Shown here: positions 3,005-50,641 of the stretch, in pieces | How positions within the stretch are numbered: position 1 is the stretch's first letter | How the letters are laid out: the number at the start of each line of letters is the position of its first letter | Made by a program: the position numbers and the translations under genes | Notes under the pieces: model-generated | What the model was told of the DNA's origin: nothing | What the model saw: the letters and a program-made list of their open reading frames with translations, nothing else | Database searches by the model: none | Assembly: GCA_021733795.1 (NCBI GenBank) | Contig: JAIPKB010000001.1 | Coordinates: 1-64,000, forward strand | Source of the DNA: Akkermansiaceae bacterium | GTDB lineage: Bacteria; Verrucomicrobiota; Verrucomicrobiia; Verrucomicrobiales; Akkermansiaceae | Direction of reading: 5' to 3' | Length of the DNA: 64,000 nucleotides

Positions 3005-6000
3005 ATGTCATTTCAACAAACCCTAAGGTGCCTCAGGCCCTTGCTTGCCCGCGTCCTGCTGATTGCGGGATTGTGTGTCGGCGGCTTGTTCTGGATCCAG
3101 TCAAATGCGGAACCAGAATTCAGTGCCGCTCTCGATGACGCCTCCCCGCCGACCGTCCAGCTCAGTTTTGAGGCGGGAGAAGACGGAAATTATTATCCAG
3201 AATACTTTGAACCCCCCATCAATGGGGGCCCCGGGCGATGGGTTCCCATCCCCAACGCCGAGCAATTTTTCCACGCAGGCAAACACGTGGTCTTTGTCGA
3301 GGTTCCGGGCGAACCCACCCCGAAGAGCCGCATCCTGCGCATGGTCGCGGCCGACCAGATCATCAGGCCCACTATCTTTCCGGCCTCGGTCACCGTATGT
3401 CGGGTGGAACCGACCAAGTGTCCGCGCAAGGCCACCATTTGTGTCGCTGACGTTGCCACCGTATGTCCCACCGTGGCATTAGCCACCAGTTGTCCGGTCC
3501 AACTCACCCGATGCACCCAGGTCCGCACCCAATGCCCCAGCCGTGCGACCTCCTGCCCGGTCCAGGCGACGACCTGTACGGCCAAACCCCTGCCGACGTT
3601 CTGCGGCGGCGTGGCGACCCAGTGCCCGAAACAAGCCACCCAGTGCGCGTCGGTGATCACGGTTTGCCCAAACCAGCCGACGGCCTGCCCGAAAAGCCGC
3701 ACCCAGTGCCCGACCGTGGCGACCCAATGCCCGGCCAACGTGGCGACCATCTGCCCGCAGCCGCCGCAACTCACCACCTGTCCTGCCAGCTCGACCGCCT
3801 GCCCGCAGATTCAAACCAGGTGCCCGATGCAGGTAACCGCCTGTGTCACCGAACTGACCACCTGTCCGCAAGGCGTCACCTATTGTCCGGAGCAGCCCAC
3901 CCGCTGCCCCACCAAGCTCACCGCCTGCCCGCAGCAGGCCACCCGCTGCCCGGCCGAGGTAACGACCTGCTCGACGAAGGCGACCGTCTGCACGGCGGCT
4001 CCGACCAGTTGCCCGACCGTGATCGACCCCACCCAATGCCCCAGGCTGCAAACCCAGTGCCCGCGTGCCCTGACCGTCTGCCCCAGTGACATCGGAGCGG
4101 CCACGATCTGTGCGGCCGATGTCGAGCCCACCAAGTGCTCGTCGCTTTACACGGCTTGTCCCACCACCGCGACCCTCTGCCCCAGGCAGCGGACCGAGTG
4201 CCCGGCACAGCCGACGCTCTGCCCGATGAACCAAACCAAGTGCCCGATCACGGCGACGGTTTGCCCGCAGGCGACAGCGGCCACAGAGTGCCCCAGAATC
4301 GACACGGTTTGTCCGCAAACCATGGCCACCGAATGCCCGATCATCCAGACCCGCTGCCCGCAAGCACCCACCCGCTGCCCGCTGGGACCTGACTGCCTGC
4401 AACCGACGACGACCCCCGGGATCCCCACGGAATGCTCGGGCCAAGCGACCGAATGCGTGCAGATTTCGACCATTTGCCCGAGACTGCCGTCCGAATGCGG
4501 CGGCGAAGTCACCGTGTGTCCCGCGTCAAGCACCACTTGTCCCAAGCAGGCCACCCGATGCCCGGTGGAACGCACCAATTGCCCGGCGGCCGCCACCAAT
4601 TGCCCGGCTCAGGCGACCGCCTGCCCGCAGGTGCGGACCCAATGCCCGCAGTTTGACACGATCTGTCCCACGGCCGACACGGTCACCATCTGCCCGCCTT
4701 CACTGACCGAGTGCCCCAGGCAGTCCACTCAGTGTCCGCTGGAGCCGACCATTTGTACCACGACGCTGACCACCTGCGCCGGCCAGCAGACGCTTTGTCC
4801 GGATCCCACCGGTGCCACCACCTGCCCGCAGGTGCGGACCGAGTGCCCCTCAAGACCCACCTTCTGCCCGCAGGCCGCCACCCGCTGCCCGGCTTACGAG
4901 ACCATCTGCCCGCAGAACGGCACCATCACCCAGTGCCCGGACAAGGCCACCGCCTGCCCGGCGGTCCCCACCCACTGTCCGCAAGCGGATACCCAGTGCC
5001 CTGAAAAACCGACGTTCTGCCCGGTCCGCTTGACCCAGTGCACCAACGAGCCGACCAACTGCCCGATCGACACCACCAAGTGTCCGCAAGGAGTTACCTA
5101 TTGCCCGGTTGCGGCCACCGCGTGTCCGAGGGTAGCCACCGAGTGTCCGCAGGATCAGTTGACCGCCTGCCCGGTGAAGGAAACCCAGTGCCCGAGCGAG
5201 CAAACCCGCTGCCCGGCCACTGCGACCCGCTGCCCGGCTGAGCCGACGATTTGTGCGCCGGATGCCGTGATGACCCAGTGCCCGGCGACCGACACCGAAT
5301 GCCCGCGGATCACCACCGTCTGCCCGCGGATCGCCACCGCCTGCCCGGTCGAGCAGACCTTCTGCCCGCAGGGTGAGACTTACTGTCCGACCAAACCGAC
5401 GGCCTGTCCGCGCGTTCCCACCGAGTGCCCGGCGGGTGCCACCCAGTGCCCGCGGCAGGCCACGGTCTGCCCCACTCAGCGGACGGCCTGTCCGTCCCTC
5501 CGCACCGAGTGCCCGGCTAGCCAGACCACCTGCCCGGTGATTCCCACCCAGTGCCCCAGCGGCGAGCCGACCATCTGCCCCATTGAGGACACCCAATGCC
5601 CGGTCCAGCAAACGCTTTGTCCGGTGACCACCGGGGCGGCCACCACTTGTCCCTACCTGCCCACCGTGTGTCCGTCCGCCGACGGCACCACCACCCAGTG
5701 TCCGCAGGAAACCACCGTCTGCCCGCAAGCCCAGACCCGGTGCCCGGTCAAACAGACCGAGTGCCCGCAACACGCGACCGGCTGCCCGGTGATTGCCACC
5801 ATCTGCCCATCGGACCCGGTGGATACCCAGTGCCCGATGAAGGAAACCGAATGCCCTGGTAACGGTGCCACCTTCTGTCCCTCAGTGCCCACCGAGTGCC
5901 CCGCCAGCCCCACCAAGTGCCCGGCGGAACCCACCCGCTGTCCGCTGGATCCCGCGCCCACCACCTGCCCGGTTGAACGGACCGTGTGCCCGGTCGGCAC

Positions 6001-7516
6001 CGCCACCGCCTGCCCGACCACGTTCACCGAGTGCCCAGTGACCAGCATGGTGACCCAGTGCCCGGTGGCGACGACCTCCTGCCCGGTGAGGCAAACCGCG
6101 TGCCCGAGAAGTGTCACGGAGTGCCCCGCCGCGGAAACCCAGTGCCCGGAAAGGGAAACGGTGTGCCCGGCGACCGTGACCACTTGCGTGAATGAACCCA
6201 CTCTGTGCCCCACCACCGCCGCTACCATGTGTCCGGTGACCGCCACCGCCTGCCCGCGGGAAATGACCGCCTGCCCGCGGATCACCACCGAGTGCCCGCA
6301 ATCGCCCACCATTTGCCCGCAGTTGACCACCCGCTGCCCGCAACAGGCGACCCAGTGCCCCCAGGCGCAGACCAACTGCCCCACCAAGCAGACCGCCTGC
6401 CCACAGCTGGAAACCGAATGCCCGGTCGCCCAAACCTCCTGCCCGAAGGTTGAGACCGAGTGCCCCCGCAGCCCAACGCAGTGCCCCCTCCTGATCACCG
6501 AGTGCGTTCAGTCAGCCACCCAGTGCGCTACGCAACCCACCCAGTGTGCCACCGGTGCGGTGACCTACTGCCCTGAGGAACCCACCCGGTGCCCGGCGTC
6601 GGCCACCAAGTGTCCGGCCACGGCCACCCAATGTCCCATCGAGCAAACCACCTGTCCGGCGGTCCAGACGGTCTGCCCGGCCAAGGCCACCGAGTGCCCG
6701 GCCGAACCCACCCGTTGCCCGGCCAAGCAAACCGAGTGTCCGGCGGTCCAAACCGAATGCCCGGTTGTCCAAACCGAGTGCCCGGCCCGGGTGACCACCT
6801 GCGTCGGCAGTCCCACCGAGTGTCCGCAGGCGGATACCCAATGCCCGGCTGTGGCCACCGTCTGCCCGACTGTGGCTACCGAATGCCCGGTGGGGACCAC
6901 CGAGTGCCCGGACCCCACCGGCACTTGCGGTCCGACGTTCTTCCCGCGACACGCCACCGAGTGCCCGCCTGACGTGCCCACCCAGTGCCCGGTCAACATC
7001 ACCACCTGCCCGGTCAAGGACACGGAATGTCCGGTGGATGTGGTGAATGTCACTAGTTGCCCGCGCATTGCCACCCAATGCACCGGCACCGCAGCCACCG
7101 AGTGCTCCACCAATTCCACCCAATGCCCAAGTGCCGATCATCCGACGGAATGCCCGAGCGGAGCGGGAGACACCACCACCTGTCCGATCGCGCCGACCCA
7201 GTGCCCGCGGCAGACCACCCACTGCCCGGCGGTGGCGACCGAGTGCCCGCAGATCGTGACCGAGTGCCCGTTTGACCCGACCGTTTGTGGCGAGCCGACG
7301 ATTCTGCCGCAAATTCCAACTGAGTGTCCGCGGATCACCACGGAATGCCCGGTGGGGACCACCGAGTGTCCGGATCCTACCGGTACTTGCGGACCGACCA
7401 TTTTCCCGGACAAGCCCACCGAGTGTCCGCAGCAGGTGACCGTTTGCCCGCGCGTTCAGACCGAATGCCCGACATTCTCGACCGAGTGTCCGGACGCCAC
7501 CGGTGCCTGCCTGTAA
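3005..7516 (+). CDS. giant exported Cys-rich protein of Thr-x-Cys-Pro heptad repeats
   Basis: A 1503-residue protein I cannot assign to a named family. Residues 1-36 look like a signal peptide (basic start, hydrophobic LLARVLLIAGLCVGGLFW, then SNA before EPEF). Residues about 37-130 form a Cys-free, aromatic- and Pro-containing head. From about residue 132 to the C terminus the chain is one array of a seven-residue unit, Cys-Pro-x-x-x-Thr-x, so that T-x-C-P recurs every 21 bases; by length there are about 190 units. Insertions of one to several residues keep the T-x-C phase. A longer spacer of the form CPDPTGTCGPT occurs twice near the end and its start (CPDATGAC) closes the protein. Codons for the same unit differ from copy to copy, so selection appears to act on the protein. 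Pro every seven residues argues against a coiled coil. Likely an extracellular or envelope protein, disulfide-linked or metal-binding (inference). Confidence 0.85.
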   Translation: MSFQQTLRCLRPLLARVLLIAGLCVGGLFWIQSNAEPEFSAALDDASPPTVQLSFEAGEDGNYYPEYFEPPINGGPGRWVPIPNAEQFFHAGKHVVFVEVPGEPTPKSRILRMVAADQIIRPTIFPASVTVCRVEPTKCPRKATICVADVATVCPTVALATSCPVQLTRCTQVRTQCPSRATSCPVQATTCTAKPLPTFCGGVATQCPKQATQCASVITVCPNQPTACPKSRTQCPTVATQCPANVATICPQPPQLTTCPASSTACPQIQTRCPMQVTACVTELTTCPQGVTYCPEQPTRCPTKLTACPQQATRCPAEVTTCSTKATVCTAAPTSCPTVIDPTQCPRLQTQCPRALTVCPSDIGAATICAADVEPTKCSSLYTACPTTATLCPRQRTECPAQPTLCPMNQTKCPITATVCPQATAATECPRIDTVCPQTMATECPIIQTRCPQAPTRCPLGPDCLQPTTTPGIPTECSGQATECVQISTICPRLPSECGGEVTVCPASSTTCPKQATRCPVERTNCPAAATNCPAQATACPQVRTQCPQFDTICPTADTVTICPPSLTECPRQSTQCPLEPTICTTTLTTCAGQQTLCPDPTGATTCPQVRTECPSRPTFCPQAATRCPAYETICPQNGTITQCPDKATACPAVPTHCPQADTQCPEKPTFCPVRLTQCTNEPTNCPIDTTKCPQGVTYCPVAATACPRVATECPQDQLTACPVKETQCPSEQTRCPATATRCPAEPTICAPDAVMTQCPATDTECPRITTVCPRIATACPVEQTFCPQGETYCPTKPTACPRVPTECPAGATQCPRQATVCPTQRTACPSLRTECPASQTTCPVIPTQCPSGEPTICPIEDTQCPVQQTLCPVTTGAATTCPYLPTVCPSADGTTTQCPQETTVCPQAQTRCPVKQTECPQHATGCPVIATICPSDPVDTQCPMKETECPGNGATFCPSVPTECPASPTKCPAEPTRCPLDPAPTTCPVERTVCPVGTATACPTTFTECPVTSMVTQCPVATTSCPVRQTACPRSVTECPAAETQCPERETVCPATVTTCVNEPTLCPTTAATMCPVTATACPREMTACPRITTECPQSPTICPQLTTRCPQQATQCPQAQTNCPTKQTACPQLETECPVAQTSCPKVETECPRSPTQCPLLITECVQSATQCATQPTQCATGAVTYCPEEPTRCPASATKCPATATQCPIEQTTCPAVQTVCPAKATECPAEPTRCPAKQTECPAVQTECPVVQTECPARVTTCVGSPTECPQADTQCPAVATVCPTVATECPVGTTECPDPTGTCGPTFFPRHATECPPDVPTQCPVNITTCPVKDTECPVDVVNVTSCPRIATQCTGTAATECSTNSTQCPSADHPTECPSGAGDTTTCPIAPTQCPRQTTHCPAVATECPQIVTECPFDPTVCGEPTILPQIPTECPRITTECPVGTTECPDPTGTCGPTIFPDKPTECPQQVTVCPRVQTECPTFSTECPDATGACL

Positions 7517-25000: not shown

Positions 25001-25594
25001 GCTGGGCGACGTGGCGACAGGTCCGGCGGACAACGGGCGCGGATTTCCAACTGTGGCTGGCGCGGCTCGCGCCATGCCGTCTTGGGGGTGTCTCGCCCCC
25101 AAAAGCTTGGTGAAACTGCCTATGCATGTTCGATCATTCGATCCAGTGGCACGCTGGAGTCCTTGAAACCGGAAGGTCTTTGCGAATGAGTCAAGTTTTG
25201 AGCGCCCAATTGATTGCCGATTGACGATTGATGATTTTTGATTTGGAGCTTGCCTGGCGCGAACGCTCGTTTCCAAGCTCACTTCAAAAATCAACAATCA
25301 ACAATCAAAAATCAACAATCGTTAATCATCAATCCTCTTCGTATTCTGCTTGGTCTGAGGCCTGCCTCGCTAGACATCAATGCCCCCTCTTTCACCAAAC
25401 AGGCTGGAACCCCGTTTTCCAAGACAGGCTGCAAGCCTATCCTGCTCCGCGATTCCCTCTGCGATCTCCGCATCTTTGCGTTTCGCTACGATCCAAACCT
25501 GCTGAAACACCGGTTGCCCTACCGTTCCGGGAATCGCTTTTCCCGTGGTTTGCGCTTGCCGGGGTGGGCTGGTGGCGGCAGGGTGGCGGGCGTC
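25001..25594. other. intergenic stretch with AATCAACAATC-type simple repeats; no gene called
   Basis: Around 25285-25335 the plus strand repeats short ATCAACAATC-like words. Partly complementary GATTGACGATTGATG words occur around 25215-25245, so the stretch could fold back on itself. Base composition is clearly more A+T-rich than the flanks. Open frames here read as unconserved, Asn/Gln/Ser-rich strings and I reject them. Confidence 0.45.
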
Positions 25595-27018: not shown

Positions 27019-28229
27019 TCACTGCAACCCGGGTCTGGCGACCTCGCCGCGCAACTGGGCCTCGCCGCGGTCCTTCTCGTAAACGCCGTAGAAGTTCGAC
27101 GCGGAGTCGAGCCAGACCGTGATGCGGTGCAACTCCTCCGGGCTCAGTTTCACATCATAATGGCCATTTTCAAGGATTTGATAGAGTGTGGCCGCCCTGG
27201 CTCTCGGGGAATCCGACTTCCGGCGTAACCCGCTTCACCGGGGCCATGGCATCATCGTCAGGGATCCGGGGATCAAACATGATGATTGAGCCATACGCCT
27301 GGCCATGATGAGGCGCCGCCGTTTCGATGATCTTCTGGGATCCCGGGACCGCACGCAGATCCATCTCCATGTCGGCGCGTTTCCCTTTCACTGAAAAATT
27401 GCCATGCATCGCACGGGAATCCCGCCCGTTGGGCAATGGGCAGGGATCGAAGTCGTTGAAGGTCCCGTCGGTCAGTTGGCGCAGATGCACACCCTTGGTC
27501 GTGGCCGGGTCGAGCGCAACCTAGAAGTTGTGGTAACAACGCCCCCGCTCCCAGTGCCCGTTGTGGGCATGATCGAGGTGGTCGATATGCCCGCCGTTGC
27601 CGGTGCACTCGACCCACGCGAAGAAAACCGATTTTCCGTCCCACGATAACTCCGGCGACAGGAAGCTACCGCCCATCAGTGGCTTGCACGCGAGTCTCCC
27701 GCTCTCGACCACCGCATGCTCCAGCAGGTCGGAAAGCTGCGGACTCTCGCCAAACGGGTCGCTCAGCACGAACAACCCGCCACCCGGAACCGCGTTGGTT
27801 CCGTAGAATTGGTCACACATGTGGTTGAACGTCGAGCGGTGACGCTTGATGAACAGGATCTTGTCGTAATCCAGCAGCGGGTTGGAAAACGCAATCCGCC
27901 GGCGCAACTCGCAGACTTGGGAAAACAATCCGCACCGCGCCTCCTGGTCAGCGACCTCCGTCGCCGAGGCGCGGTTTTCGAACTCCACCAACTGCTTGGC
28001 CAAATCCCCCATCGCCGGCGCACCCGGCAGGGTCTCGATGTCCTTGAGCAGTGCGCCGGTTCGGCGCAGGACGATGTCGAGCGGATCGCGGTCCGACTTC
28101 GCGATCAACGATGCCGGATGGAAAGTCTCGTCCGGAAACTGGTTGACCTTGGCGGCGCTCTTGAGGTCTTCCGCAAGGGTGTTGTTAGTGCGATGCCGCC
28201 CGGTACGATTGTGTCCCGGTTCGAAGTCG
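27019..28229 (-). pseudogene. decayed HZS-alpha/PD40-type secreted protein
   Basis: Fragments in order read like the hydrazine-synthase-alpha-like proteins of planctomycetes and verrucomicrobia: DYDKILFIKRHRSTFNHM, GGLFVLSDPFG, LSPELSWDGKSVFFAWVEC, then RGRCYHNF followed by an in-frame TAG where relatives have Lys, then LRQLTDGTFNDFDPCPLPNGR. An internal deletion joins that to AMHGNFSVKGKRADMEMD and AAPHHGQAYGSI. A frameshift near 27185 leads to the C-terminal LSPEELHRITVWLDSASNF ending at TGA 27019-27021. The N terminus is missing: the open frame merges upstream with the GH106 remnant. No function expected. Confidence 0.7.
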
Positions 28230-28967
28230 CGCCATTGCCGCGGGTCACCCGATAGGTGCCGGATTTCCACACTAACACCTCACGCCTGGTCTTGACCTCA
28301 CAGTCGGGCAATTGCTGAGGCCAGGGTTCCACCAACACCAGTGCGTCACCCTCCCATGCCTCGAGGCGTTTCGCCCCGCCGTCCGGCAACCGCATCTCCA
28401 CCAGCAGCTTCTTCCGCGTTTTCGGCGCCGGATCGGTTTCCGCCGATTCGTTGTTCCCCCGGATCACGGCCAGGCCGCGCGACAGTTCGCCGCGGACCAA
28501 CGCGGTGACATCCATTCGCCGGGCCGCATCGCCGGGATCACCGTAGGCGGCGGAGACCACCTGCGGAATCGGTCTCACCGTCGCCACAGTCCGCGCATCC
28601 GCCACCGGGATGCCTTTGAGCAGACCGCCGTCAACCGGGTCGCCAGCCGACGCCAGCCGGCCAATATATCCGGCGAAATGGGTGTCGGCCCCGGTCGGCG
28701 AAAGCTTGTCGCACTCCCACCCGGTTCCCTCAGGTGCGGCCGGACCATTGCGTCGGCCGGTATTCACATGGCCCCACCGTCCAGTTGCCCGCCGATGAAA
28801 TGAAACCAGGTCTCGGGATGAACCTCCCGGGCCGGATCGGAAAATGCCGCAGCGTCCGCCGCGCCGAACGCCGGAGGAGCCGCGCCAGCCGCAGGTAGCG
28901 CGAAGACGAGAGCGAATGACAGCCGTGCGAAGGAGTTGCGGCGTGAGCGGGTGATCCGTGGGATCAT
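28230..28967 (-). pseudogene. decayed GH106-like (alpha-L-rhamnosidase) gene
   Basis: An intact start and signal peptide (LSFALVFALPAAGAAPP) lead into PETWFHFIGGQLDGG, then a frameshift near 28775 and an apparent deletion join to GHVNTGRRNGPAAPEG and GWECDKLSPTGADTHF. Those are recognisable GH106 N-terminal blocks, but hundreds of residues between and after them are absent. A later piece (VLVWKSGTYRVTRGNG) resembles the end of the same family. The start ATG overlaps the fructokinase stop (ATGA at 28964-28967), a relic of the operon. Confidence 0.65.
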
Positions 28968-39371: not shown

Positions 39372-40390
39372 ATGGCGGTCAAATCGAGCGTTGTCAAAAC
39401 GAAAGGGCCCGCAAAGCTTCCGGCACGCATGAATGTGTCAAACCCAACCGCACCTGTTCACCCGCTGGAAGAATTGCCACCGGCGAAAATCACCGCCGCC
39501 TTGCTAGGGGCGACGCTGGTAGGTGCGTTGGGTGGGCTATTGTTCGGGTTCGACACTGCGGTCATCTCCGGTTGCCAGGACCAGTTGAAGCTCTTGTTCC
39601 AACTCACCGCCAACGAGCAGGGATTCATGACCGCTTCGGCGCTGATCGGAGCCGCCATCGGTTCGCTGGCGGCGGCCAAGCCGGGTGACCTCTATGGCCG
39701 CCGCGATTGCCTGAAAATCGCTGCCGCGTTCTCTTTGCTCTGTGCCATCGGCTGCGCCGCTGCGGCGGGGCTCTGGATGATGATTGCTGCGCGAATTCTC
39801 GGCGGCATCGCGGTGGGTGCCACCTCGGCGCTGGGGCCGATGTATCTTGCGGAAATGGCCCCTGCCGCCTGGCGCGGCCGGTTGGTGGCGTGCTTCCAGG
39901 TCAACATCGTGTTGGGCGTGTTGGTGGCGAATTTTTCCAACGATCTGATCGGCTCGATGGACCTTGGCGCGGCCGAGTGGCGGTGGATGTTGGGGATCCT
40001 AGGCACTGCCTGCGCTGGCGTTTCTGGCGCTCTTGTTCTTCACCCCCCGCAGCCCGCGCTGGCTGGTGATGAAGGGGGAACACCAGCAGGCCGGGGAGGT
40101 GTTGCGCAAGATCGGGCTGAGCCAAGCCGAGGAACACCTCGCGGCCATCCGCAACTCGGTGCACCTGGAAATTGGCCAGACCTCGGCTCCGCTATTTGTC
40201 AGATCCCTCTCCAAACCGATTTCCCTCGCGGTGGCGGTCGCCATGTTCAACCAACTCGGCGGGATCAACGCGCTCTGGTACTATGCGAACACCATTTTCG
40301 CGATGGCGGGGTTCAGCAAGGATTCCAGCGCGTTGCAGTCGGTCATGCTCGGGGTGGCCAACCTCATTGCAACCCTGGTGGGCATGGAAA
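39372..40390 (+). pseudogene. sugar-porter MFS transporter, frameshifted and 3'-truncated
   Basis: The N-terminal half is a clear sugar porter: GALGGLLFGFDTAVISG, a degenerate inter-helix motif (AAKPGDLYGRRDCLK) and LAEMAPAAWRGRLVA. Near 40003 the reading frame shifts by one base; the other frame carries on with LFFTPRSPRWLVMKGE, FNQLGGINALWYY and LQSVMLGVANLIATLVG. After about 40385 the transporter stops in mid-sequence (roughly helix 8 of 12) and unrelated sequence follows. It was probably the fructose or oligosaccharide importer of the locus; now inactive. Confidence 0.75.
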
Positions 40391-40677
40391 GGAACATTTT
40401 CAGCAGCCGGATGTGCTGGAATTGCTGCTGCCGTTCGTGCCGGGCTTGGAATACGGCGCTGAGTTGATTCTTGAAATCCCAGCGGAACAGATGGTGATCG
40501 AATCGGATCTCCAAGGTCGAGATCCAGAACCAACATGACAATGTCAATCCCACGACTCCCGCTGAGGCGGATGACTATATCAGTCTTGCGTTCTGGTATC
40601 AGGAGGGGCCGGTGCAAGTCGTTGCATTGCCAACCTTCAAACAGCGCACGGCACCCGCCTTTTCCACCGACAAATAA
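40391..40677 (+). pseudogene. gene debris: unknown fragment plus a GH172-like C terminus
   Basis: One frame reads HFQQPDVLELLLPFVPGLEY and ends at a TGA near 40538; I do not recognise it. Another, from about 40513, reads NVNPTTPAEADDYISLAFWYQ and then QEGPVQVVALPTF, ending at TAA 40675-40677, like the C terminus of DUF2961 (GH172) proteins. Neither has a start. They bridge the truncated transporter and the second GH32 gene. Confidence 0.5.
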
Positions 40678-43517: not shown

Positions 43518-44276
43518 TTACCGGACCTTGCCGGTGGCCGCCCACTCGGTCCCGCGCTGGATGAGTTTCGTGACGTTGGGGGTCCGGATTGCGTTGCCGT
43601 CGTGGCCGAAGGTTTCGTGAAACACCCGGCCTTGCCCGTATTCCAGGGTGAAGGCGAGCGGTTCGGTTGCATTGCTCCAGTCCGAGGCCGCGGTCACCAG
43701 TACGTGGATCGATGCGTCGCCCTGCAACTTGGCATAAAGTTCGTCGTCGGTCTGGAAGTCTTCCAGCCCTTGGGTGATCGGGTGGTTCCGGTCGGCGATT
43801 TGGGCTTTGAAGACGCTGCGCGGGCCGTGGCCGGACTGGCCCATGACCCAGTAGCGGCCGCAAAGTTTCTGGAATTCACCCCACTCCTTGAACGACGCAC
43901 TCGATAGATGGGAGATGCAGAGGCCCTTGCCGCCCTTCACATAGGCCAACAGGTTCTGTTTGGCCGCCTCAGAGAGCGTAGCGAGCTTGGCGTTGTAGAA
44001 GTGAAGGAACACCGCATCGTAGGCCTTGAGCGAACTGGCGGATTCGAAAATGCCCGGATCCTCGCTAACGTTCACCTCAAACCGGTTCGTTGCCAGCAAG
44101 GCCTCGCGGATCGCCTGGGAGACCTCGTGCCACGGGTGGGCGGCGACGTCGTCGCCGGTGACGATCAGCACCTTGAGCTTGGGCGAGGCATCGGCCGCAG
44201 GGCACGGTGCGATGGAAATGAGGGAGCAGCCAATCAGGGCGGCGAATGACGCGCGCAGGGTGTTTCGACGGTTCAT
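43518..44276 (-). CDS. secreted ThuA-like domain protein
   Basis: A 252-residue protein with a signal peptide (NTLRASFAALIGCSLIS, cleavage near PAADA) and a ThuA-like class-I glutamine-amidotransferase-related fold: KVLIVTGDDVAAHPWHEVS, AYDAVFLHFYN, GKGLCISHLSS, then FHETFGHDG. ThuA-like proteins occur in verrucomicrobial sugar loci, often beside Gfo/Idh oxidoreductases; the activity is not established. Start at the ATG 44276, which directly precedes the signal peptide. It converges on the SGNH hydrolase. Confidence 0.85.
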   Translation of the reverse strand: MNRRNTLRASFAALIGCSLISIAPCPAADASPKLKVLIVTGDDVAAHPWHEVSQAIREALLATNRFEVNVSEDPGIFESASSLKAYDAVFLHFYNAKLATLSEAAKQNLLAYVKGGKGLCISHLSSASFKEWGEFQKLCGRYWVMGQSGHGPRSVFKAQIADRNHPITQGLEDFQTDDELYAKLQGDASIHVLVTAASDWSNATEPLAFTLEYGQGRVFHETFGHDGNAIRTPNVTKLIQRGTEWAATGKVR

Positions 44277-44660
44277 GGGATGGGATGGGATGGGATGGTT
44301 GGGGGTTGGGATGGTTGGAGGTGGCTGTGCGGTGGGTTGACTAGGTGCTTGGACGAAACTGCGCCAGCTGCCGGGAAAACCGCACGATGACACAGCCGGC
44401 AAGACTACGTCTCGAACCAGCGTTGATCTTTCATCATTGATGCCAGGGGCATCAACGTGCCGCGCGCAGCCGGGGCGAGATTTCCGCGGCACTCGAGCGG
44501 AATAGCCAGCAGCGGCTTGGGGGTCTTACTCCTGGCTTTATGCTCGCTCGGGAGTTCGGTGCGGGCCATCCGGTGATTTCCGAGATTGGCGGTGATGATC
44601 GGATAGTTGCTACCAAACAACAGGTAACTCGACGGTTCTCGCGCGGGGGCGTCGTCGCCA
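44277..44660. other. upstream of the ThuA gene: GGGAT runs and an unassigned fragment
   Basis: Bases 44277-44335 contain tandem GGGAT/GGTTG words upstream of the ThuA start (plus-strand view). A minus-strand open frame ending in RWFET at 44405 (through AIPLECRGNLAPAARG) runs back to about 44740 without a start that makes sense. It may be the 3' end of a deleted gene, but I recognise no family. Confidence 0.35.
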
Positions 44661-46035: not shown

Positions 46036-49030
46036 ATGCCAATCTCCATCCGCCATCGCAGCCCGGCGCTCCTCGTGAGTGCGGTGGCGATCCTGTTGTG
46101 GACAGTCATGTCCACACCGCTCCAGGCCGATGAGTCACAGGGGTATCTCAACCGCTTCTGGCAAACCAGCGATGGCATGCCGAGCAACTCGGTCAACGAC
46201 ATCGGCAAGGACCGGGATGGCTTTCTCTGGATTGCCACCGGCGCGGGGGTGGCGCGCTTCGACGGGCTGCGATTCGAGGTCTTCTACACCCGCGACGGCC
46301 TGCCGGACACGCAGCTCCGGTGTCTCCACGTGGACCGCAGAAACCGCGTCTGGGTCGGCACGCGGCGCGGCGTCGCCTACCGCGAAAACGGAGCCTGGGT
46401 GATCCCCTCCGGGTTTCCGAACGAACCGGTGTTTTCCCTCGGGGAAGGGACCGACGGCTCGATCTGGGTGGGCACCTTCATCGGGTGCTGGAAGTGGGAC
46501 GACGGCGGGTTCACCAAGATCAACCTGGGCGACATCACCCCGGACGTGCGCTCGTTTCTCGGCGAGGGTGGGAGTGGCATGTGGATTCTGACGCGGGACA
46601 ACCTCTGCCTTTGGCATCCGGAAACGCCCGGCACGGTGGAGCCGGTCCCCGGGCCTTGGGAAAACAAGGACCTGCGTGACCTCGCACGCGATCATGCCGG
46701 ACGCGTCATCGTGTGCGGGACCGGAGTCCTGCTGCGCCGCGAGGGTGATCATTGGGAAGACCTCAACCCCATGATCCCAAACGGCGACCAAAACGCGAAC
46801 CTCGCCTGCGCAGTCGCTGCCGATGACACGATCTGGCTGGCAACCCGGAACCACGGACTGACTTTCCTCCATGACGCGGCAACCGGCGTCATCGATTCCA
46901 CCGGGGACCTCTCGCTCAATGACGTCCGCAGCGTCATGACCGACGCCAACGGGATGATCATGGCAGGCACCAATGGCGGCGGCATCAACATCCTCCGCCG
47001 CCGCCCGTTCGACACCTACTCAACGAACGAAGGGCTCGGCGGCACCGTGACCTCAGCGCTCGCCATCGACCGCCAGGGCGAAATCCTTGCTGGCACCGAC
47101 GGCGGCGGCATCTTCCGCAAGGAGAATGGCAGGTTCCGGCCCTGCTATCGGAACTCGGGACTCCCCGGAGACGGGCTGATTTGGTCCCTGTGCGTCGGCG
47201 TGGACGACAGCATCTGGGTGGGTACCTATCAGGACGGACTGTTCCGCATCCGGGGCGACCAGGTGGAGAAGATCACCCCAGCCACCGGATTTTCGGGTAA
47301 CCCGATTCCCGCGCTTGGTGGGACGCGTGACGGAGGGGTGCTGGTCGGAACCAGTTCCGAGGGCGTGCGGAAGTGGAAGGGCGGCCAACTTGATCCCGAC
47401 TTGAGTGGGCCTCCCGGGGAAGGGTTCGTGGTTTATGACGTGCTGGAGGATCATCTCGGCCGGATCTGGGTCGCCACCGGCGAGCAGGGCCTCTGGGTGT
47501 TTGAAAATGGCGGGTGGCGGGAAACGACGCGGTCGGTTGGAATGCCCGAACTCCTTCCCGCAGTCATCCACGAAGGCGGCGATGGAGACCTGTGGGTCGG
47601 CTCGCTCGGCCAGGGATTGGCCCGCTACCATGAGAACCAGTGGACCGCATGGGATGTCCGGGACGGCATGGTCAGCGATACCATTTGCCAGATTCTGGAG
47701 GATGATTCCGGCAACCTCTGGCTCGGATCCGACCGGGGGCTGCAGCGGGTTTCCATCGCGGTTCTAGGCGCATATCACCGGGACGAAAGCGGGTTGCCCA
47801 TGGAAAGCATGCTTTTCGGACGGACGGACGGACGGATTGCCCACCCCGCAGTTCAGCGCGGAACACGGCAACCTGGCGGTCCGCGGCGACGATGGTTGCC
47901 TCTGGTTTTCGCTGGCCTCGGGTGCGATCCGGGTGGATCCAACAAGGTTTCCCAAATCCACCCACCTGCCATTCGTCCGAATTGAAAGCGCCACCGCAGA
48001 CGACGGCCCCATCTGGAACTTCGAAGGGCCGGAAACACGCAACGAGATTGTCCTGCCCCCAGGTGGCGGCACGCTGCGAATCCGCTACACGTCGCCCCAA
48101 TTCATCGCGCCCGAGCGGGGCCGGTTCCGCTACCGGATGACCGGAGTCGAAAGGGAATGGCAGGAGGTCGAAGGCGCCCGGGTCGCCAGCTACGCCTCCC
48201 TGCGTCCGGGAACCTATCAGTTCGAGGTCTTCGGAGCCACCTCCGACGGAACCTGGAATCCGACGCCCGCCCGGATCCGCGTGGTGGTGGAGCCATTCAT
48301 CTGGCAGACGTTGACCTTCCAATTGAGTGCCACCCTGATCATGCTGGCGGCCTTGGGCTGGGTGATTCGCACCGGATCCCTCCGCCGGATCCGTCGCCGG
48401 ATGGAACTCGTCATGCAGGAACACCGGATCGAAAAAGAACGCACCCGCATCGCCCGCGATCTCCACGACGACCTCGGCGCAAGTCTCACGGAAATCAATT
48501 TCCTCGGCACCCTCACCGCCGGCGCGGTTTCCGACAACGCGGTCCGCCAGCGGATCGAGGGCATGGTGGACCGCGCCCAGCGCATGACCAAATCGCTCGA
48601 TGAGATCGTCTGGACCGTCAACCCGGCAAATGACTCGCTCTCGTCCACCGCAAATTACCTCAGCTCCAGGACCCAGGAAAGTCTCGTCGCCGCCGGCATC
48701 CGGTGTCGCATGGAGGTGGACGACCCACTCCCGCATACTCCGGTGGATTCGGACCTCCGCCACCATCTGCTGATGGCGGTCAATGAGGCGGTCAACAATG
48801 TGATGAAGCATTCCAAAGCCACCGAATGCACCCTTTCGATCCGATTCAATGACCGGATCCTGCTCGTCTCCATCGCGGACAACGGGACCGGCTTCGCCCC
48901 CGTCACCTCGCCTGACAGCCGCAACGGCCTTGTGAATCTGCAAAGCCGCATGAAAGCTTCGGGCGGCAGCGTCGATATCTCCAGCACCCCACACGGCACC
49001 ACGGTCACCCTGCGCACGCCATTGCCATGA
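46036..49030 (+). CDS. beta-propeller sensor histidine kinase, out of frame at a (CGGA)5 tract
   Basis: Two adjoining frames form one protein. Frame one (from ATG 46036) gives a signal peptide and about twelve propeller-type sensor repeats (DGFLWIATGAGVARFDG, GQGLARYHENQWTAWDV). At 47817-47836 lie five CGGA units; with five, frame one runs on to a stop at 47985. With four, it would read FGRTDGLPTPQFS and continue into frame two: a Y_Y_Y domain (about 48060-48290), one membrane span (48310-48370), an HPK7-type DHp with RIARDLHDDLG (His codon at 48464) and an HATPase domain (NEAVNNVMKHSK, DNGTGFA). The partner response regulator follows 79 bases later. Either a phase-variable switch now off, a fixed lesion, or a sequencing error. 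Confidence 0.82.
47817..47836 (+). repeat. (CGGA)5 tetranucleotide tract at the kinase frameshift
   Basis: Five perfect CGGA units lie exactly where the sensor kinase changes frame. Loss of one unit (or gain of two) restores the frame, and the restored junction reads DGLP, a motif common in this position of propeller kinases. Confidence 0.9.
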
Positions 49031-49109: not shown

Positions 49110-49751
49110 ATGCCGTCATCAATAGTCATCGTGGAGGACAACAACGTGGTCCGCGAATGTTTGGAGGAAATCGTAAATGCCATTCCCGGATGCGATTGTC
49201 TGGCGGCATTCGCCTGTGCGGAAGATGCGATCCGGTTGGCACCACGACTCACGCCCGATCTGGTGATGATGGATATCCAGCTCCCCAACCTCTCGGGGAT
49301 CGAATGCGCCGCCAAACTCAAGGAGATGCTCCCGGAGGTGCTGATCCTGATGCTCACTGTTTACGAGGACGAGGAGCGCATCTTTGAGGCGTTTAAAGCT
49401 GGTGCCAGCGGCTACATCCTCAAGCGGGCAAGCCCCCGCGAGGTGATCCAGGCGATCAAGGACATGCTTGAAGGAGGCGTTCCGATGACCCCCACCATTG
49501 CCCGGAAAGTGGTGGCGTCCTTCCGCCAGGCTCCTGCCGCAAGCGAGCAGGGCCCCTCCCTCACCCGCCGGGAAACCGAGGTCCTGCAAAGCCTTTCCAA
49601 GGGCTTGAGCAACAAGGAAATCGCCGACCTGCTGAGCGTCACCCTCGAAACGGTGCGCTGGCACCTCAAACAAATCTACGAAAAACTGCATGTCCACGGG
49701 CGCACCCAGGCCGCCCTCAAGTTCATGAACATGCAGAACTCCAAACGCTGA
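49110..49751 (+). CDS. NarL/LuxR-type response regulator
   Basis: A 213-residue two-component regulator: receiver domain with acidic pocket E9-D10 and phosphoacceptor Asp55 (LVMMDIQLP), conserved Thr in MLTVYEDEE, Lys in YILKRASP, and a C-terminal LuxR-type helix-turn-helix (about 148-205; LTRRETEVLQSLSKGLSNKEIA). It follows the propeller kinase at 79 bases and is presumably its partner. Genes just downstream encode a GH16 glucanase and a coupled protein, plausible targets. It remains intact even though the kinase is out of frame. Confidence 0.92.
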   Translation: MPSSIVIVEDNNVVRECLEEIVNAIPGCDCLAAFACAEDAIRLAPRLTPDLVMMDIQLPNLSGIECAAKLKEMLPEVLILMLTVYEDEERIFEAFKAGASGYILKRASPREVIQAIKDMLEGGVPMTPTIARKVVASFRQAPAASEQGPSLTRRETEVLQSLSKGLSNKEIADLLSVTLETVRWHLKQIYEKLHVHGRTQAALKFMNMQNSKR

Positions 49752-49771: not shown

Positions 49772-50641
49772 ATGAACCCCACCTTTTCCCTAACTTGCTG
49801 GCTGGCTGCCATGACCGCGGCTTCGTGTTTCGCCCAAGCCCCACCCCACGCGGTCCCCGCCAAGGATGATCGACAACCACCACGCGATCCTTCGTGGAAG
49901 CTGGTCTGGGCTGAGGAATTCAGCAAGGACGGGACTCCGGATGGAGCTCGTTGGGATTTCGAACAGGGCTTCCAACGCAACTCCGAACTCCAGTGGTATC
50001 GCCCCGAAAACGCCGTGTGCAGGAACGGGGTGCTGGTGATTGAAGCCCGCAGGGAAAAGCTCCCCAACCCGGGATTCCGGCAGGATTCCAGAGACTGGAA
50101 GCGCTCCCGCAAGTTCGCGGAATACACCTCCGCCTCGCTCATCACCAAACCCGCACTTGCCTGGACCTACGGACGCTTCGAAATCCGGGCCCGCTTTCCA
50201 GCCGAGCCCGGCCTGTGGCCAGCCATCTGGACCACCGGCCACGGGCGCTGGCCCGAGGGTGGGGAGATCGACATCATGGAGTTCTACCGCGGCCAGATTC
50301 TCGCCAATTTTGTCCAGGCTAACAAATCCGGTCGCGACGAGTGGAACTCGTCCCATCACGACATCGAGAAATTCGGCAAGGACGACTGGGCCGGGAAGTT
50401 CCACCTGTGGGTGATGGAATGGGATCAGGATAAGATCACGATCCATCTCGACGGCCAACTGCTCAACACCCATGACCTCACCCGTTCCTTCAATGGCAAC
50501 AACCCGCAGGTGAATCCCTTCCGCGCCCCCCACCGCCTCCGCCTCAACCTGGCGATCGGCGCGAATGGCGGAGATCCCTCGCACACCGTCTTTCCCAAAC
50601 GCTACGAAATCGATTACGTCCGGATCTACCAAAAACCATGA
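49772..50641 (+). CDS. secreted GH16 endo-beta-glucanase
   Basis: A 289-residue protein with a signal peptide (SCFAQ near 22) and a single GH16 jelly-roll domain. The catalytic motif is GEIDIMEF with Glu165 nucleophile, Asp167 and Glu170 acid/base. WKLVWAEEF and YGRFEIRARFP are typical laminarinase-type blocks, so a beta-1,3-glucan is the likeliest substrate. The start lies 20 bases after the response regulator, and the stop overlaps the next start in an ATGA at 50638-50641, so the pair is translationally coupled. Confidence 0.9.
   Translation: MNPTFSLTCWLAAMTAASCFAQAPPHAVPAKDDRQPPRDPSWKLVWAEEFSKDGTPDGARWDFEQGFQRNSELQWYRPENAVCRNGVLVIEARREKLPNPGFRQDSRDWKRSRKFAEYTSASLITKPALAWTYGRFEIRARFPAEPGLWPAIWTTGHGRWPEGGEIDIMEFYRGQILANFVQANKSGRDEWNSSHHDIEKFGKDDWAGKFHLWVMEWDQDKITIHLDGQLLNTHDLTRSFNGNNPQVNPFRAPHRLRLNLAIGANGGDPSHTVFPKRYEIDYVRIYQKP

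Follow-up and report, generated by a model that had tools for sequence, protein, structure and literature searches.

A sensor kinase gene of an uncultured Akkermansiaceae bacterium is split into two reading frames by a perfect (CGGA)5 tract, one unit longer than the reading frame requires. The gene lies in the window analysed here, by which we mean the whole stretch of 64,000 nucleotides. This allele is probably (about 60%) a recent one-off loss of function that slippage produced in the sequenced population, within a region undergoing loss of carbohydrate genes.

The split gene and its repeat tract

The open reading frames at 46036-47985 and 47837-49030, both on the forward strand, are two halves, in different frames, of one Reg_prop/Y_Y_Y/HisKA_3 sensor kinase gene. 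The propeller half (46036-47985) begins with a signal-peptide-like N-terminus followed by Reg_prop repeats, runs out of frame past the tract and reaches a stop codon at 47983-47985. The kinase half (47837-49030) is open and full length, and holds Y_Y_Y, one hydrophobic segment, HisKA_3 and HATPase_c. The Reg_prop, Y_Y_Y, kinase and ATPase domains were identified as Pfam matches on the two halves and are found in single frames of ~1000 aa in relatives, while NCBIfam provided no above-cut-off name for either half. The HisKA_3 phosphoacceptor motif RDLHDDLG (in RDLHDDLGASL), the N box and the G boxes are all retained in the kinase half. The gene is followed by that of an intact LuxR/NarL-type response regulator (49110-49751, forward strand; Response_reg/GerE, 213 aa), which also adjoins the kinase in three relatives and thus forms a conserved pair with it.

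The tract occupies positions 47817-47836 of the forward strand and comprises exactly five CGGA units (20 bp). A coding-potential HMM trained on the organism's own genome places the frame switch at 47818/47819, within the tract, which confirms the claim of an earlier note on this DNA that the array sits at the exact frameshift of a sensor kinase. Surveys of coding frame yield many natural gene borders, and the candidates cited here are only those confirmed by relatives.

All genus orthologues, which are 54-77% identical to the gene over its kinase half, have uninterrupted frames of roughly 900-1140 aa, that of G051 ending at the end of its contig. Once one unit is removed, the junction reads ...MESMLFGRTDGLPTPQF... 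and aligns without gaps to ...VESMRFSREDGLPTPQF... of the orthologues, in line with the junction that the note had expected from four units. Its description of both halves as clean also held, as the kinase half holds no further lesion and the four-unit reading can be aligned with relatives over the junction and along both halves; the four-unit (ON) form therefore encodes an intact protein. With four units, the codons at this site would be TTC GGA CGG ACG GAC GGA TTG CCC; examples from relatives are TTC AGC CGT GAG GAC GGG CTG CCC and TTC AGC CGC CCG GAC GGA CTG CCC. The number of codons that relatives have here is exactly four units' worth. With regard to tract length in relatives, which the note had proposed to compare, the codon count does correspond to four units, but the codons themselves are non-repetitive and form no four-unit tract. 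Neither a CGGA repeat nor a break occurs at this site in any genus orthologue, and the break is thus a singleton.

Because the codon count of the family equals four units, the lesion is the gain of one whole 4-bp unit. Had a single base been inserted instead, one codon more than in the relatives would remain; the count thus makes slippage in the cell a likelier source than sequencing error. The gain of one unit (from four to five) is the signature of slipped-strand mispairing, and the event indeed looks like the slippage that the note had invoked, which we infer to be its cause.

The 20-bp tract exceeds what chance composition produces, as tetranucleotide-period runs in 3 Mb of third-order Markov sequence with the composition of the window never exceeded 16 bp. 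In 434 kb of its own genome no other tetranucleotide array reaches 15 bp, and among 73 genomes of the genus it is the only array of at least five CGGA units, three other genomes containing four-unit arrays. Across the phylum, five CGGA units were detected in just two others of 387 spread genomes. No second sensor kinase with a CGGA tract was found by searching for (CGGA)4 in the genus and for (CGGA)5 in the 387 phylum genomes, and (CGGA)3-YTGCC is present only at this kinase, with no recurrence elsewhere among 260 genomes of the family.

A probable recent loss of function

According to the favoured reading, slipped-strand mispairing would have added one CGGA unit, from four to five, disrupting the sensor kinase gene. 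The intact form is predicted to be a secreted Reg_prop propeller followed by Y_Y_Y, a membrane segment and a HisKA_3 kinase. With five units, the product would be exported and consist of the propeller followed by a tail of ~50 unrelated residues; the Y_Y_Y domain, membrane segment and kinase would all be missing from it. The kinase/response-regulator pair would then be off, with the intact regulator left partnerless and signalling presumably lost, although in principle the gene could revert by losing one unit.

Several observations support a one-off loss: the orthologues are single open frames with a codon count of four units and none of them is split, the gain is that of a whole 4-nt unit, and the contig shows independent gene decay at distances of ~7 kb and ~19 kb. 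Nor is the tract an edge artefact, because the nearer end of the 86-kb contig is ~38 kb away. In a survey of frame transitions, frameshifts present in a single genome were regarded as indel mutations or sequencing errors, and phase variation was assigned to conserved homologous clusters (PMC3711429). The kinase break is isolated, and that survey would place it under indel mutation or sequencing error, which favours a one-off loss.

One case of nearby decay is an MFS sugar transporter (39372-40390, forward strand), which carries a frameshift near 40000 and has lost its C-terminal half. Its DNA is 81% identical to an undamaged stretch of the relative G054, in comparison with which two deletions of ~0.78 and ~0.93 kb (about 1.7 kb) have removed the C-terminal half of the transporter and most of the following genes, leaving remnants of a small ORF and of a DUF2961 gene at 40391-40669 (forward strand). 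The whole pseudogene, fused to these remnants (39372-40669, forward strand), is flanked by a GntR/LacI-type regulator and a GH32 enzyme. On the reverse strand, a fragment of a GH106-type gene (28105-28767) lacks ~1.4 kb of internal sequence, joining segments that are ~1.4 kb apart in three relatives, and a second fragment (27524-28270) matches part of proteins of 1092-1133 aa in relatives. These two open reading frames overlap (27524-28767, reverse strand), both being fragments of far longer proteins of relatives. The lesions in the MFS, GH106 and 27524-28270 carbohydrate genes look like real ones, and the loss of a sensor from this contig is therefore unsurprising.

A GH16-family glycoside hydrolase (49772-50641, forward strand) lies downstream of the kinase/regulator pair. 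This position is peculiar to the present genome, as no GH16 match was found beside the orthologous pair in relatives, where the neighbours are beta-helix, MoxR-AAA, DUF58/BatA or GH2 genes. The wider region contains GH32, GDSL and transporter genes. A role of the pair in glycan sensing, as named in the note, is plausible but putative, with no particular glycan linked to it. The kinase shares the propeller, Y_Y_Y and kinase architecture of HTCS-type Reg_prop/Y_Y_Y sensor kinases. It differs from them in having a HisKA_3 kinase and a separate LuxR-type regulator of 213 aa, instead of being a hybrid in which the response-regulator and AraC domains are fused to the kinase.

A paralogous propeller kinase of a relative is also broken (G032:C283:12500-18000, L106, 2061-4516), by an internal deletion and a frameshift, so the loss seen here is not the only one among such sensors. 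It was discarded as a second case of a tract because it is broken without any repeat. Two other candidates, the short-frame paralogues of G062:C391 and G023:C172, were rejected owing to their different architectures.

The kinase half shows a dN/dS of ~0.2 against its nearest relatives, close to the values among the relatives themselves. The protein branch leading to the window's gene is only modestly longer than that of its sister (0.22 versus 0.15, and 0.35 versus 0.32 for the propeller half). This dN/dS value, together with the retention of the catalytic motifs, indicates that the break is young. Nevertheless, a conserved kinase half would be expected if the break were recent, reversible or not real, and recency is therefore our interpretation. 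The gene combines a disabling lesion with intact orthologues, as a pseudogene does, but neither further lesions nor relaxed selection were detected in the kinase half, so that it would at most be a recent one; the response regulator likewise shows no sign of relaxed selection. This last point weighs against a one-off loss, as a reversible switch would leave the same picture. Singleton frameshifted pseudogenes of draft genomes resemble this case in that they are broken in one genome, have intact orthologues and are otherwise conserved, but here the break falls within a tandem repeat, so reversion should be easier than in most of them. Read as a one-off loss, the locus may offer a snapshot of how carbohydrate-response systems vanish, with reversible slippage first and deletion after.

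Competing explanations

An assembly or consensus artefact, in which the true genome would have four units and an intact kinase, is an unlikely explanation. The reality of the fifth unit and its fixation both rest on one assembled sequence, which belongs to a metagenome-like draft of 6.07 Mb in 318 contigs, with a completeness of 86%. Comparison with relatives supported two more frameshifts in the sampled 434 kb, and consensus indel errors may thus occur in this assembly. One of them (C140:14749-14792) lies beside a C6 run in the gene of a GspE/PilB-type ATPase, the downstream half of which is 95% identical to intact relatives, and the other affects a large protein near base 915 of C138. Both are located at most ~1 kb from contig ends, unlike the tract in the interior of its contig. 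Furthermore, a whole 4-bp unit is an unusual sequencer error, and one short read can span a 20-bp tract. The ATPase gene (L128, G000:C140, 14445-15639) is a single open frame in relatives and, being near a contig end, possibly contains an assembly error. The contig of the window starts with G15 (positions 1-15), typical of two-colour short-read artefacts. This start suggests that the data are two-colour short reads, for which an error of a whole unit in a 20-bp tract would be unlikely.

Slipped-strand phase variation, the switch that the earlier note had put forward, would make four units the ON state of the kinase and five the OFF state, so that some of the cells would not sense the signal. 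We consider it quite unlikely, and the proposal is unsupported in view of the singleton break, the repeat-less orthologues, a length at the minimum cut-off and the decayed carbohydrate genes on the contig. A repeat at a frameshift does not alone make a phase switch. The perfect tetranucleotide array is certainly positioned exactly at the break, with both halves intact, and phasome screens use five tetranucleotide units as the minimum, although tracts at such cut-offs may mutate at rates <1e-5 (PMC6321876, PMC5953494). The five units in the reading frame reach this hypermutable cut-off (at least five), whereas the in-frame four-unit ON form would fall under it, so that re-expansion should be slow. 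Neither a tract nor a frameshift recurs at this site in homologues, including the search of 260 family genomes, and the genes nearby are truly decayed. CGGA tracts also occur in intact frames: a five-unit tract of G093 sits in an uninterrupted 841-aa frame, and those of four units in G022 and G034 share one position in a 634-aa frame that is likewise unbroken. Consequently, switching cannot be read from the mere presence of a CGGA tract in a gene.

Two-component genes can be phase variable. In Bordetella, the sensor kinase gene bvgS switches between C6 and C7 (PMC1891110), and flgS and flgR are phase-variable two-component genes in Campylobacter (PMC3930126). The bvgS case is a close parallel, because a one-unit change in a short tract truncates a sensor kinase, C6/C7 corresponding to four/five CGGA. 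However, switching of bvgS was shown in strains and cultures, while the present case consists of one sequence with a tract that is absent in relatives. The tetranucleotide contingency genes of Haemophilus and Neisseria (such as modA) also carry the array within the reading frame, which shifts with a one-unit change. Their tracts are usually longer and recur in related strains, and their switching has been measured; here there are five units in a lone allele. A strain-specific version of the switch would have a new CGGA tract, formed over the conserved R-x-D-G-L-P codons, act as a contingency locus for the propeller sensor kinase of this environmental Akkermansiaceae species. This version is slightly more doubtful again, and no sign of an evolved contingency locus was seen at the tract. 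If the gene were truly switching, it would represent a phase-variable sensor of extracellular signals in free-living Verrucomicrobia. For slippage-type phase variation in Verrucomicrobia we found one claim, a suggestion drawn from homopolymers of Akkermansia, including those in capsule genes (PMC3048395).

Recoding or a split functional gene, with ribosomal frameshifting or re-initiation in the kinase half yielding an active kinase, is very improbable. In its favour, the frame of the kinase half already runs open ahead of the tract and offers in-frame starts at TTG 47837 and GTG 47933. However, no convincing ribosome-binding site was seen by eye, CGG is not rare (29% of Arg codons), and programmed frameshifting was rejected because only a T4 run was seen in place of a slippery heptamer and because the site lacks conservation, the gene of relatives being in frame.

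Other repeats in the genome

Additional arrays were observed in this genome. A pentanucleotide array, (ATGGG)4.8, is located at 44275-44298 of the window. On the minus strand, the probable ATG start (44276-44274) of a gene with a ThuA domain is overlapped by the end of this array, and changes in the number of units could alter translation initiation of this gene. Heptanucleotide arrays consist of GACAGAT (x13.6; L132, 11240-11334), TGAAATT (L111, 3117-3193) and TCAACAA (window positions 25284-25320). A long open reading frame at 3005-7516 of the window contains many degenerate repeats of 21/42 bp (TGCCCGGC...ACC) and encodes a repetitive protein.
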